NCBI RefSeq assembly: GCF_029504655.1
Contig: NZ_JAQFIL010000001.1
Location: 439,001 to 503,000, forward strand
DNA length: 64,000 bases
DNA from: Catalinimonas alkaloidigena
GTDB taxonomy: Bacteria > Bacteroidota > Bacteroidia > Cytophagales > Cyclobacteriaceae
Reading direction: 5' to 3'
Shown: one piece after another, positions 58,554 through 64,000 of the stretch
Layout of the letters: every line of letters begins with the position of its first letter
Numbering within the stretch: position 1 is the stretch's first letter
Notes under the pieces: model-generated
Told to the model about the DNA's origin: nothing
Databases searched by the model: none
The model's input: the letters and a program-made list of their open reading frames with translations, nothing else
Position numbers and translations under genes: made by a program

Positions 58554-61500
58554 ATGACAGTGGTAAATTTGAAAAATAGATTATTGGTAAGTGGGATAAT
58601 CAGTTTCATCTGTCTGCTGATGAATGGTTCACCAGCATTAGCCCAATGCCCTACAACAGGCGGAACAACCATTACAAAGACAGACGAGCTTTGCTTTAGT
58701 GCAAATGATGGTACAATTACTTTTACTTTTAGTGATGGTTCATACCCTTCAGTGACCGATTATAGAGTAAGGCTGTGGAATTTTGAAGAAGGCGCAACGG
58801 GTGCTTACGTATATGACGATAATAACCCTCCTTTTCTCAATATAGTCCCTGCTCCATCTATTGTAGCAGATATGTTGGTTTTTTCTAATGTTCCTCCGGG
58901 AGATTATCTGCTGGTATTGGACGGAGGAAGTTGTTCTAACGAAGATTATGGGTTCCTTTTTTCAGGAGCTCCAAATAGCGGTATCAGAATCAATGCCGCA
59001 ACAGAAATCGTTATTGATGAGCCAACCATAGCTACGGTCGGTAACGATCAGTGTAATGCGCCATTTAATGGGTCAATAGATGCTAGCGGAGCCGTTAGCG
59101 GTGGCACTGGAGGATATGAATATTCTATTGATGGAGGAACAAACTATCAGCCAAGCCCGGTATTCAGTAATTTAGAAAACAATACCTACACACTGACTGT
59201 CAGAGACACTAATGGTTGTATCAAAGAAGAAGCGAATATTGTCATTAATGATAATCGTGTGACACCCACAGCAGGCATTACGCCTTCACCTGCTTCTGTT
59301 TGTGCTGGAGAAGATTTAGTATTGGATGGAAACCCTGCGGGAGGAGCCGGAGGTTTTACTCATAGCTGGACCGGAGATACGGGTTTTCTTTCGGCTACCA
59401 ATGTAAGTAATCCAACCTTTAATGCAGCTACGGATGGCAATTACTCATTGACATATACAGTAACGGATGCAAGTGGATGTACGGCTACCAGCAATATTTC
59501 TGTAACAGTTAATGCCCTACCAGTAGTAGCAGATCAGATGCCTACGGTTTGTGCAGATATACCCGGAGGTACCCAGGCGACTGCTGTTGATTTGACCACA
59601 TTAAATGTGTCAATAGATGGAGGAAATGGCTACACTATCAATTGGTACGCTGATGCAGGTCCTGCTTCCCCAATAGCTGACCCAAGCAATGTGACAGTAA
59701 ATGGCGGAGACGATTTCTTTGCCGAAGTAATTGATGGAAATGGCTGTTCTTCTGTGGCAACGATCAGCTATAGTGTTGTTTCTGCTCCTATTGCTCCTGC
59801 AAATGTAACAACATCCAATATTATTTGTGATGGTTTTGATTTAAGCTGGGATGTATCAGCGACAGCTACTTCCTATAGAATAGAAATTGACGAAGACCCT
59901 GCTTATGGAAGTCCGGAAGTAAATGCAACGCAAGCTGGAAATACTTTAAATGTAAGTGGGTTAACACAGGGTACAGTATATAACATTCGTATTACACCTA
60001 TTAATAGTTGTGGAGACGGAACCTCAGCCACAGATACAGAAACGACTACAGATGTACCGCTAGCATTGGCGAATTTAGCCTCAGCCAACCCGGTCTGTGA
60101 TGGTTTTGATGTAAGCTGGGATGCTTCAGCAGGTGCGGTAGATTACCTGATAGAAATAGATGATGACCCTGGCTTTGGGAGCATAGAGGTGACTACCACG
60201 CAGGCAGGTATTACTTACAATGCCAGTGGCTTGTCACAGGGCATAACATACAACATCAGGGTAACGCCCAGAAATACCTGTGGAAATGGTGCTTCAGCCA
60301 CCGATACCGAGACGACTACCGATGTACCGGTGGCGCTAGCGAATTTAGCTTTGGCCAACCCGGTCTGTGATGGCTTTGAAGTAAGCTGGGATGCCTCGGC
60401 AGGTGCGGTAGATTACCTGATAGAAATAGATGATGACCCTGGCTTTGGGAGCATAGAGGTGACTACCACGCAGGCAGGCACGACATACAATGCCACAGGC
60501 TTGTCACAGGGCATAACATACAACATCAGGGTAACGCCTAGAAATACCTGTGGAAATGGTGCTTCAGCCACAGACACCGAGACGACTACCGATGTACCAG
60601 TGGCACTTGCGAATTTAGCTTTGGCTAATCCGGTCTGTGATGGCTTTGAAGTAAGCTGGGATGCTTCAGCAGGTGCGGTAGATTACCTGATAGAAATAGA
60701 TGATGACCCTGGCTTTGGGAGCATAGAGGTGACTACCACGCAGGCAGGCACGACATACATTGCCACAGGCTTGACACAGGGCATAACATACAACATCAGG
60801 GTAACGCCCAGAAATACCTGTGGAAATGGTGCTTCAGCCACAGACACCGAGACGACTACGGATGTACCGGTGGCGCTAGCGAATTTAGCTTTGGCTAATC
60901 CGATCTGTGATGGCTTTGAAGTAAGCTGGGATGCATCGGCAGGAGCGGTGGATTATTTGATAGAGATAGATGATGATCCTGCCTTTGGCAGCATAGATTT
61001 GACCACGACTCAGGCAGGTATTACTTACAATGCCACAGGCTTGTTACAGGGCACTACTTATAACATCAGAGTAACGCCCAGAAATACCTGCGGCGATGGA
61101 GCCTCAGCCACAGACACCGAGACGACTACGGATGTACCGCTGGCCCTGGCGAATTTAGCTACAGCCAACCCGGTCTGCGATGGCTTTGAAGTAAGCTGGG
61201 ATGCTTCAGCAGGAGCGGTGGATTATTTGATAGAGATAGATGATGACCCTGCCTTTGGCAGCATAGATCTGAGTACTACTCAGGCAGGTATTACTTACAA
61301 TGCCACAGGCTTGTTACAGGGCATAACATACAACATCAGGGTAACGCCCAGAAATACCTGTGGAGACGGAACCTCAGCCACAGATACAGAAACGACTACA
61401 GATGTACCGGAGCAGCCTATCAATCTGCTCAGCAGTGGAGAAGTCTGTGATGGATTTGATGCAGCCTGGGACCCGGCTTTGGGAGCAGCAAGTTATCGGG

Positions 61501-64000
61501 TAGAAGTGAGTGATGATAATTTTGCCACAACAGTAGCGACAGCCACTCCCTCAGCAGGTACCGAGATTGTAAGCTTTTCTGGTTTGAGTCAGGGGGTAAC
61601 TTATGCGTGGAGAGTGACAGCGATCAACAGCTGTGGCAATAGTATAGTATCCGCAGAACAGACCGCTACTACGACTACTGCTCCAGTTGTAATCGACCCT
61701 GCACCAGCACTTTGTTCAGATGACATCGGAGGCAATACTGCCTCAAATATAGACTTGAGAGCACAGGAAGCAGTCATGGATGGAGGAGCAGGATATCCTT
61801 TTGTATGGTACAGTGATGCTGCAGCAACAATATCAGTTCCTGATCCAACCGATGTTACAGCCACCGATGGACAAAGCTTTTATGCCAGAGTAGGTACAGG
61901 TTCCTGTGAAGTAATTGCCAGTCTTACCTTCGCTGTCAACTCGACAGATGACTCAGGCTTTGACTATGTACAGGCAGCCTACTGTGAGAATGAGTTGAAT
62001 CCTGTAGCCCAGAATGTGATGACTGCCGGTGGTACTTTTTCTTCCACGGCAGGCCTAAACTTTCTGGATACTACCACCGGAGAGATAGACCTGGCAAGTA
62101 GTACAGCAGGTACTTATGTAATTACTTATACTACTGCTGGTGCTTGTCCTTCTTCATCAACGTATGGAATAGAAATTTATGAGGTTCCTACAGCGAATCA
62201 CCTTTCAGAGGTAGTTTGCGAAGATGCTGAAGGAAGTAGCTCTGCCACAGTAGACCTGACTGTACTTGAAAGTGCTATCAACAATGAGGGAGGCTTAACT
62301 TTTACCTGGTATGATGATCCCGGCCTGGCTCCGGCTAATGAAGTAGCTACTCCCAACAATATTAGTGTGGGTAATGGCGATACCTATTATGCTGTAGTGA
62401 GCAATGGCAATTGTCAGGCAGTAGGTGAGGTGAGCTATACCATAAATAGTCTTCCAGCGGTAGTTGACTTAACGCCTGAGGCTTGTGAAACGACTGCCGG
62501 TGGTGGTAGCGCTTCAGCAAGCCTGAGAGATTTGGAAATGGCTATGGATGGTGGCGCGGGACTTACCTTCACCTGGTTTGAAGATAATCTATTTGCTACA
62601 CCAGTAGCTGACCCTACCAATGTAACGGTGAGCAATGGTGATGATTTTTACGCCTTGGCTAGTGATGGCACTTGTGAGAGCTCTGCTTCAGTAACTTATA
62701 CGGTTAATGCGCTGCCAGTGATAAGTTTCAGCGGATTGAGTTCTCCCTACTGTGAAACAGATGGTGCTGTATTGTTAACTGGGGATCAGGCCCCGAATGG
62801 TACATTCTCCGGACCTGGTATCACGGATAATGGGGACGGAACGGCTAGCTTTGATCCGGCAACTGCCTTGGCAGGTACACATACTATTACTTATTTTTTT
62901 ACAGATGGCAATGGATGCGCTGCCGAAAGTGCGCAAACAGTTGTGGTCAATGACTGTACCCTGCCGGTAAGCGCTAATTTTACCGCTGATGTCACCAGCA
63001 TATGTGATGGTGAGACAGTAACATTTACCAATCAGTCATCGGGAACCATTACGACTTACAATTGGGACTTCGGAGTAGGAGCTACCCCGGCTACAGCTAC
63101 CGGTGCAGGACCACACGTAGTTACTTATAATGGCGTAGCCAGTTATACAGTTTCTCTGGAGGTAAGTGATGGCGTAGATACAGATACAGAAAGTAAGACT
63201 GATTTCATCACCGTTAACCCGGCAGATGACTCAGGCTTTGACTATGCACAGGCAGCCTACTGTGAGAATGAGTTGAATCCTGTAGCCCAGAATGTGATGA
63301 CTGCCGGTGGTACTTTTTCTTCCACGGCAGGCCTAAACTTTCTGGATACTACCACCGGAGAGATAGACCTGGCAAGTAGTACAGCAGGTACTTATGTAAT
63401 TACTTATACTACTGCTGGTGCTTGTCCTTCTTCATCAACGTATGGAATAGAAATTTATGAGGTTCCTACAGCGAATCACCTTTCAGAGGTAGTTTGCGAA
63501 GATGCTGAAGGAAGTAGCTCTGCCACAGTAGACCTGACTGTACTTGAAAGTGCTATCAACAATGAGGGAGGCTTAACTTTTACCTGGTATGATGATCCCG
63601 GCCTGGCTCCGGCTAATGAAGTAGCTACTCCCAACAATATTAGTGTGGGTAATGGCGATACCTATTATGCTGTAGTGAGCAATGGCAATTGTCAGGCAGT
63701 AGGTGAGGTGAGCTATACCATAAATAGTCTTCCAGCGGTAGTTGACTTAACGCCTGAGGCTTGTGAAACGACTGCCGGTGGTGGTAGCGCTTCAGCAAGC
63801 CTGAGAGATTTGGAAATGGCTATGGATGGTGGCGCGGGACTTACCTTCACCTGGTTTGAAGATAATCTATTTGCTACACCAGTAGCTGACCCTACCAATG
63901 TAACGGTGAGCAATGGTGATGATTTTTACGCCTTGGCTAGTGATGGCACTTGTGAGAGCTCTGCTTCAGTAACTTATACGGTTAATGCGCTGCCAGTGAT
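58554..64000 (+). CDS. Giant secreted multi-domain adhesin-like protein (3' end outside window)
   Basis: The frame is open from ATG 58554 to the window edge, 1815 codons, with no stop. Layout: signal peptide (residues 1-31, ending SPALA); unnamed YDDNNP domain (about 32-150); SprB-type repeat (about 157-230, CNAPFNGSIDASGAVSGGTG ... YSIDGGTNY); two Ig-like modules (about 235-412); seven FN3-like repeats of exactly 90 residues (about 420-1030, core CDGF.[VL]SWD); further cysteine-bearing Ig/adhesin modules; a PKD domain (about 1470-1555, FTADVTSICDGETVTFTNQS ... YNWDFG). From residue about 1557 it repeats residues about 1131 onward. It resembles gliding-motility/type IX-secreted adhesins; the sorting domain would lie beyond the window. 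Confidence 0.9.
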   Translation, partial: MTVVNLKNRLLVSGIISFICLLMNGSPALAQCPTTGGTTITKTDELCFSANDGTITFTFSDGSYPSVTDYRVRLWNFEEGATGAYVYDDNNPPFLNIVPAPSIVADMLVFSNVPPGDYLLVLDGGSCSNEDYGFLFSGAPNSGIRINAATEIVIDEPTIATVGNDQCNAPFNGSIDASGAVSGGTGGYEYSIDGGTNYQPSPVFSNLENNTYTLTVRDTNGCIKEEANIVINDNRVTPTAGITPSPASVCAGEDLVLDGNPAGGAGGFTHSWTGDTGFLSATNVSNPTFNAATDGNYSLTYTVTDASGCTATSNISVTVNALPVVADQMPTVCADIPGGTQATAVDLTTLNVSIDGGNGYTINWYADAGPASPIADPSNVTVNGGDDFFAEVIDGNGCSSVATISYSVVSAPIAPANVTTSNIICDGFDLSWDVSATATSYRIEIDEDPAYGSPEVNATQAGNTLNVSGLTQGTVYNIRITPINSCGDGTSATDTETTTDVPLALANLASANPVCDGFDVSWDASAGAVDYLIEIDDDPGFGSIEVTTTQAGITYNASGLSQGITYNIRVTPRNTCGNGASATDTETTTDVPVALANLALANPVCDGFEVSWDASAGAVDYLIEIDDDPGFGSIEVTTTQAGTTYNATGLSQGITYNIRVTPRNTCGNGASATDTETTTDVPVALANLALANPVCDGFEVSWDASAGAVDYLIEIDDDPGFGSIEVTTTQAGTTYIATGLTQGITYNIRVTPRNTCGNGASATDTETTTDVPVALANLALANPICDGFEVSWDASAGAVDYLIEIDDDPAFGSIDLTTTQAGITYNATGLLQGTTYNIRVTPRNTCGDGASATDTETTTDVPLALANLATANPVCDGFEVSWDASAGAVDYLIEIDDDPAFGSIDLSTTQAGITYNATGLLQGITYNIRVTPRNTCGDGTSATDTETTTDVPEQPINLLSSGEVCDGFDAAWDPALGAASYRVEVSDDNFATTVATATPSAGTEIVSFSGLSQGVTYAWRVTAINSCGNSIVSAEQTATTTTAPVVIDPAPALCSDDIGGNTASNIDLRAQEAVMDGGAGYPFVWYSDAAATISVPDPTDVTATDGQSFYARVGTGSCEVIASLTFAVNSTDDSGFDYVQAAYCENELNPVAQNVMTAGGTFSSTAGLNFLDTTTGEIDLASSTAGTYVITYTTAGACPSSSTYGIEIYEVPTANHLSEVVCEDAEGSSSATVDLTVLESAINNEGGLTFTWYDDPGLAPANEVATPNNISVGNGDTYYAVVSNGNCQAVGEVSYTINSLPAVVDLTPEACETTAGGGSASASLRDLEMAMDGGAGLTFTWFEDNLFATPVADPTNVTVSNGDDFYALASDGTCESSASVTYTVNALPVISFSGLSSPYCETDGAVLLTGDQAPNGTFSGPGITDNGDGTASFDPATALAGTHTITYFFTDGNGCAAESAQTVVVNDCTLPVSANFTADVTSICDGETVTFTNQSSGTITTYNWDFGVGATPATATGAGPHVVTYNGVASYTVSLEVSDGVDTDTESKTDFITVNPADDSGFDYAQAAYCENELNPVAQNVMTAGGTFSSTAGLNFLDTTTGEIDLASSTAGTYVITYTTAGACPSSSTYGIEIYEVPTANHLSEVVCEDAEGSSSATVDLTVLESAINNEGGLTFTWYDDPGLAPANEVATPNNISVGNGDTYYAVVSNGNCQAVGEVSYTINSLPAVVDLTPEACETTAGGGSASASLRDLEMAMDGGAGLTFTWFEDNLFATPVADPTNVTVSNGDDFYALASDGTCESSASVTYTVNALPV
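59821..61710 (+). repeat. Seven FN3-encoding units in exact 270-bp register
   Basis: The CTGTGATGG core recurs at 59821, 60091, 60361, 60631, 60901, 61171 and 61441, each 270 bp apart (90 codons). Units 2-4 are over 90% identical by eye at DNA level, whereas units 1 and 7 are more diverged. Short blocks (for example GCAGGTATTACTTAC versus GCAGGCACGACATAC) are shuffled among units, a sign of gene conversion. Confidence 0.92.
61945..62722 (+). repeat. First copy of a 1278-bp-spaced direct duplication
   Basis: Matches 63223-64000 at all but one position (T in GACTATGTAC versus C in GACTATGCAC, Val to Ala) by reading both side by side. The offset is 1278 bp (426 codons), so the frame is kept. 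The first copy goes on past 62722 into a module, PKD domain and the junction at 63222. Confidence 0.93.
63223..64000 (+). repeat. Second copy of the 1278-bp duplication (cut by window edge)
   Basis: Begins right after the PKD domain (FITVNP then ADDSGFDYAQAAYC) and copies 61945-62722 almost exactly. Whether the full 1278-bp unit, with its PKD domain, is repeated once or many times cannot be seen. Confidence 0.93.

Follow-up and report, generated by a model that had tools for sequence, protein, structure and literature searches.

A doubled five-domain block in a giant gene

The host DNA (G000) comprises 7,923,645 bases in three contigs, and the window, by which we mean the whole 64,000-nucleotide stretch that was analysed (G000:C1:439001-503000), ends inside a giant open frame whose layout is given in Table 1. 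Modules were assigned with profiles built from four genes (the giant gene and those of G001, G002 and L027), so that the assignments lean towards these genes.

Table 1. Layout of the giant gene, in window numbering; values above 64000 lie outside the window
Feature	Position	Strand	Remarks
Giant gene	58554-70691 (end outside window)	+	4045 aa, open frame
Giant gene, in-window portion	58554..64000	+	first 1815 codons
N-terminal region, residues 1-236	58554..59261	+	signal-peptide-like start (by eye) and SprB repeat
Seven FN3 modules, residues 412-1042	59787..61679	+	
Ig_7 module directly before the duplication, residues 1043-1130	61680..61943	+	module profiles
Copy 1 of the 1278-bp unit	61945..63222	+	
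Copy 1, module B	61944-62183	+	profiles
Copy 1, first Ig_7	62184-62450	+	profiles
Copy 1, second Ig_7	62451-62711	+	profiles
Copy 1, cadherin-like	62712-62954	+	profiles
Copy 1, PKD	62955-63221	+	profiles
Seam	63223..63229	+	7 identical bases where copy 2 goes from end-type to start-type
Copy 2 of the unit	63223-64500 (in window 63223..64000)	+	

The protein ends in a type B sorting domain of the type IX secretion system (T9SS), CHU_C, recognised by PF13585 with 64.2 bits (cut-off 27) and by TIGR04131 with 41.5 bits (cut-off 35); the type A profile TIGR04183 barely passes too (24.2 bits versus a cut-off of 23). The T9SS gene GldN is present in the genome. No adhesive domain was recognised in the giant protein by the domain profile search, and its domain content points to an adhesin-like protein with a putative role in adhesion. 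Like SprB and other proteins with a T9SS type B C-terminal domain, which PMC9143113 describes as anchored via PorP-like proteins such as SprF, it carries both the type B sorting domain and SprB repeats. Across the genome, no PorP/SprF-type gene lies closer to it than 167,123 bp. Such a gene was found within 2 kb of 10 of the 21 chromosomal CHU_C genes of G000, a count based on 13 of 15 matches with two weak ones omitted, and not every type B member need have such a neighbour.

Two tandem copies of a 1278-bp unit follow the FN3 and Ig_7 modules. Inside the window 778 position pairs (61945-62722 against the letters 1278 further on) differ once, at 61969; read beyond the window, the self-match at this offset covers 61945-63229, that is 1285 positions with one mismatch, and the longest exact run between the copies is 1260 bp. 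The near-perfect in-frame duplication described in the earlier note from the visible pairs is thus present at full length: the unit amounts to 426 codons, a multiple of three bases, the frame stays open through to 70691, and the protein contains two tandem 426-residue units that differ in one residue (61969 T versus 63247 C, GTA/GCA, Val/Ala). Silent sites are part of the match, as the same note had stated, none of the ~309 synonymous sites being changed (dS < ~1%).

The several Ig-like modules and the PKD domain attributed to the unit were recovered by the profiles as five domains: an ~80-aa Ig-like module, here called B, two Ig_7, one cadherin-like and one PKD. Pfam placed Ig_7 (in one place) and PKD above cut-off, and the cadherin-like module just below it (25.3 versus 26.5 bits). 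An AlphaFold model of the unit, based on a two-sequence alignment, reached a mean pLDDT of 48 and was discarded as too poor.

The suggestion that the match continues as a long array beyond the window did not hold up, because exactly two copies exist: after copy 2 the match ends, only 83 of 240 positions agreeing with the unit start (20 of the first 25), with no third copy there. A genome-wide search with a 1201-base query from the unit returned two full places, which are the two copies in the giant gene, and further partial matches downstream in the same gene (69 bases at 88% and 91 bases at 76%). The repeat far exceeds chance level, given that the longest exact direct repeat did not exceed 17 bp in 50 codon-shuffled versions of the giant gene; in window positions 1-58500 it was 16 bp, and a repeat finder detected no repeat families there. 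The neighbouring FN3 units, said in the earlier note to be far more diverged, are indeed more diverged than the two copies, but to a smaller extent than claimed: nucleotide identity among the five central ones is 84-96%, with shared exact stretches reaching 98 bp, and that of the two outer ones to the others is 46-69%.

The same gene in relatives

Besides the giant gene, the orthologue set included 17 sequences from other species or metagenome-assembled genomes, obtained from the protein searches and from locus L027. Two of the 13 proteins from the first search (P0012 and P0013) were dropped as weak matches without modules, and five sequences covering 99% of the block at 52-61% identity were taken in from the 120 matches listed of 200; several orthologues are cut by contig ends. 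Writing I for Ig_7, C for cadherin-like and P for PKD, the order IICP occurs twice only in the giant gene, once in 13 of the 17 orthologue sequences, and is unrecognised in the remaining four (P0001, P0008, P0009 and P0010), a category that may reflect divergence, since P0008, P0009, P0010 and P0085 contain stretches of more than 1000 aa matching none of the five module profiles. In P0002 (Catalinimonas sp. 4WD22) the block is 87% identical and present once, preceded by five B modules, versus a single B ahead of the block in the giant gene. Four to six B modules precede the block in 11 of the 13 single-block orthologues, and two in P0078, which is cut. The single B here, set against the four to six in most single-block orthologues, suggests that B modules were likely lost from the giant gene before the doubling. 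We also considered whether this single B is a fusion between two B modules of the orthologues, and its mixed affinities gave no support either way. Elsewhere, the block of P0085 (Tunicatimonas pelagia) sits behind the C-terminal FN3 modules, and P0001 (Porifericola rhodea, the species of G001) has 33 B modules.

The genomic surroundings are shared as well. The genes osmC and GNAT/hydrolase adjoin the giant gene in G001, G002 and L027 as they do in G000, and purB and greA are also neighbours in G001 and G002, the L027 contig being cut upstream; the neighbour proteins compared are 68-96% identical. At the nucleotide level the IICP block is 65% (G002) and 60% (L027) identical to that of the giant gene. 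The N-terminal region, where present, spans 223-256 aa, or 172 in P0010, and the C-terminal region 638-689 aa; the part between them varies. Near-identical tracts of at least 120 bp number three in the giant gene, 97 in G001, four in G002 and one in L027, and their offsets are without exception multiples of three; this count is biased because open frames were scanned, and tracts within one array are not independent. Judged from these sequences, this is the same gene at the same genomic place, rearranged differently in relatives. A separate kind of repeat was seen in P0004 and P0006, where blocks of 285 and 357 identical residues recur ~1940 residues apart as a non-tandem intragenic copy, from the N-terminal half to the C-terminal FN3 region.

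Exact repeats across CHU_C genes

To place the duplication within its class, we surveyed 82 genes at CHU_C (T9SS type B) places in five genomes (G000, G001, G002, G029 and G031), with G012, G014, G036, G040 and G045 lying outside the survey. For G000 all 21 chromosomal CHU_C places were taken and the two plasmid ones excluded; for the others, frames of ~820 aa or more were used (12 of 17 in G001, 15 of 21 in G002, 15 of 21 in G029 and 19 of 26 in G031). Exact internal repeats of at least 60 bp were found in 15 of the 82, of at least 200 bp in 11 and of at least 1 kb in 7, where the part scored was the longest open frame of each stretch, not always the one bearing CHU_C (for locus L060, the part without it). 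All 429 exact repeats of at least 60 bp were in frame, subject to the same open-frame bias. Among 110 other proteins from the protein searches, 10 contained exact repeats of at least 70 residues. A duplication of this sort is not rare within its class.

Several other loci stood out in the same material. A giant CHU_C gene region of the host chromosome (L060:3565-17980, G000:C1:4402565-4416980) contains many near-identical 555- and 576-bp repeats, with exact repeats up to 1133 bp, and can be read as two open frames, of 2989 and 1832 aa, that overlap, one repeat pair lying 577 rather than 576 bases apart at the frame change. An 8445-codon gene in G029 (L089+L090, G029:C1:2169850-2195600) contains 3531 bp that recur exactly at an offset of 1290. 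In addition, an inverted stretch of 1280 bp is 100% identical between contigs C2 (L058:18721-20000) and C3 (L059:8732-10011) of G000, running to the end of the C2 portion examined, and each version has an equal-score CHU_C match in a 154-aa frame.

Origin and meaning of the doubling

The origin of the second copy can be read at its borders. When the three junctions (copy 1 start, between-copy seam and copy 2 end) were aligned, the outer ones agreed at 25 of the 31 bases around the seam (counted by eye), and of the four informative sites the first two carry the end-type base in the seam and the last two the start-type base. The copy 2 seam is thus a chimera, its left side as at the unit end and its right side as at the unit start, and the switch point falls at the starts of two B modules, that is, at a module boundary. 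Such a seam is the mark that an unequal crossover would leave and is hard for an assembler to invent; the switch within seven shared bases at B-module starts points to an unequal crossover or a template slip. That the doubling is recent is indicated by the orthologues, which show the block at most once, including the 87% identical relative with one. On this evidence, the locus very probably contains two in-frame copies of a five-domain stalk block that was doubled recently. For the fuller reading, in which the block was doubled in tandem within the stalk of a surface protein that is giant, adhesin-like and of T9SS type B, we put the probability at about 0.72, and it is the best overall explanation of the data.

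Perfect repeats of 1.3 kb are a classic trouble spot for assembly, and the earlier note had warned that a copy could have been invented or that copies could have collapsed. One true copy, or more than two reduced to two, is nonetheless very improbable here. The seam sequence occurs nowhere in a one-copy version, and the reads must contain the chimera; seven shared bases would probably not suffice for an assembler to join sequences by overlap; a single base distinguishes the copies; and the chromosome forms a single contig of 7,735,187 bp, which suggests long reads. The same note had offered recent duplication or gene conversion as alternatives, and it is the former that is favoured. An older duplication held identical by conversion between the copies would accord with the position of the lone difference, 25 bases from the unit edge, where a conversion tract could have ended, and with the short exact runs shared by the central FN3 units, as conversion or older crossovers would leave. 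This account is unlikely, because the copies are identical from base 26 to the unit end and two blocks occur in none of the 17 orthologue sequences, and conversion is unneeded given a seam of simple-crossover type and a single block in the orthologues having it.

A weightier alternative accepts the duplication as real and regards it as neutral, repeats coming and going with no use for changing length. We consider this a strong contender, at somewhat less than even odds: exact repeats of at least 200 bp are frequent in the survey, and the constant ends, variable middle and open frames that argue against neutrality would look alike under tolerance combined with the loss of broken versions. That the recent tandem duplication serves to change the length of the stalk is about an even bet. 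It is of a kind able to do so, as the earlier note had proposed, being a perfect in-frame repeat worth 426 aa per unit. As a first step, short stretches of matching sequence at the starts of two B modules would have allowed an unequal crossover or a slip of the template; the resulting perfect 1278-bp repeat could then gain or lose copies through ordinary homologous recombination, and the outcome would be a protein with constant ends and a stalk of variable length at the cell surface, here longer by 426 aa and five domains.

By analogy, the kind of event is already known from length-variable fibrillar surface proteins of the 'Periscope' type. As PMC8201768 and PMC9704523 present that class, length variation between strains is central, the folded repeats form a rod that carries a functional domain outwards, and recombination between repeats is the proposed route of length change. 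The giant protein shares with it a surface-type protein whose stalk is encoded by long repeats of high DNA identity, each the size of a folded domain; it differs in that the unit is a mixed five-domain block, in two copies, with T9SS type B anchoring by family. A term search for 'Bacteroid-' had no hits in either main text, so Bacteroidota go unnamed there. CHU_C fibrillar adhesin-like proteins, with an Ig/FN3/PKD-type stalk and CHU_C in 134 proteins, all from Bacteroidetes according to PMC8286594, resemble the giant protein in both features, and no known adhesive domain is recognised in it. In titles and abstract openings among the matches listed, copy-number change of repeats in T9SS proteins was not met; the nearest title concerned Bartonella adhesin A analysed by long reads (PMC8859334).

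The locus is of interest because its seam is readable, because the unit mixes five domains and because relatives show other rearrangements at this genomic place. The doubling would be a stalk-lengthening event caught early, with a seam readable to seven bases and one substitution since, and, together with the differing relatives, it would allow tests in Bacteroidota of how fast surface proteins change length and what is gained by it. More tentatively, giant proteins of the T9SS type B kind in this bacterial family might be encoded by accordion genes of movable multi-domain cassettes, with B and FN3 modules as crossover points and mixed blocks rather than single repeats as the moving parts; such a scheme would cover duplication (the giant gene), loss (B modules before the block), amplification (the 33 B modules of Porifericola rhodea) and relocation within the gene (Tunicatimonas pelagia). 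If true, these genes would quickly reshape the cell surface in free-living bacteria.

Another giant chain, grappling hook protein A (GhpA) of Aureispira sp. CCB-QB1 (PDB 9flp and others), matched the unit (window 61944-63221) over residues 4469-4706 with an E value of 2.8e-24. Nothing aligned to GhpA residues 3373-3943, a weak absence, as the 673-aa C-terminal query missed even the sorting domain. The C-terminal sorting domains of the two proteins align with 41 bits, and the aligned GhpA stretches listed lie within Ig/FN3/PKD-type modules and the sorting domain, the likeness seen being at that level.
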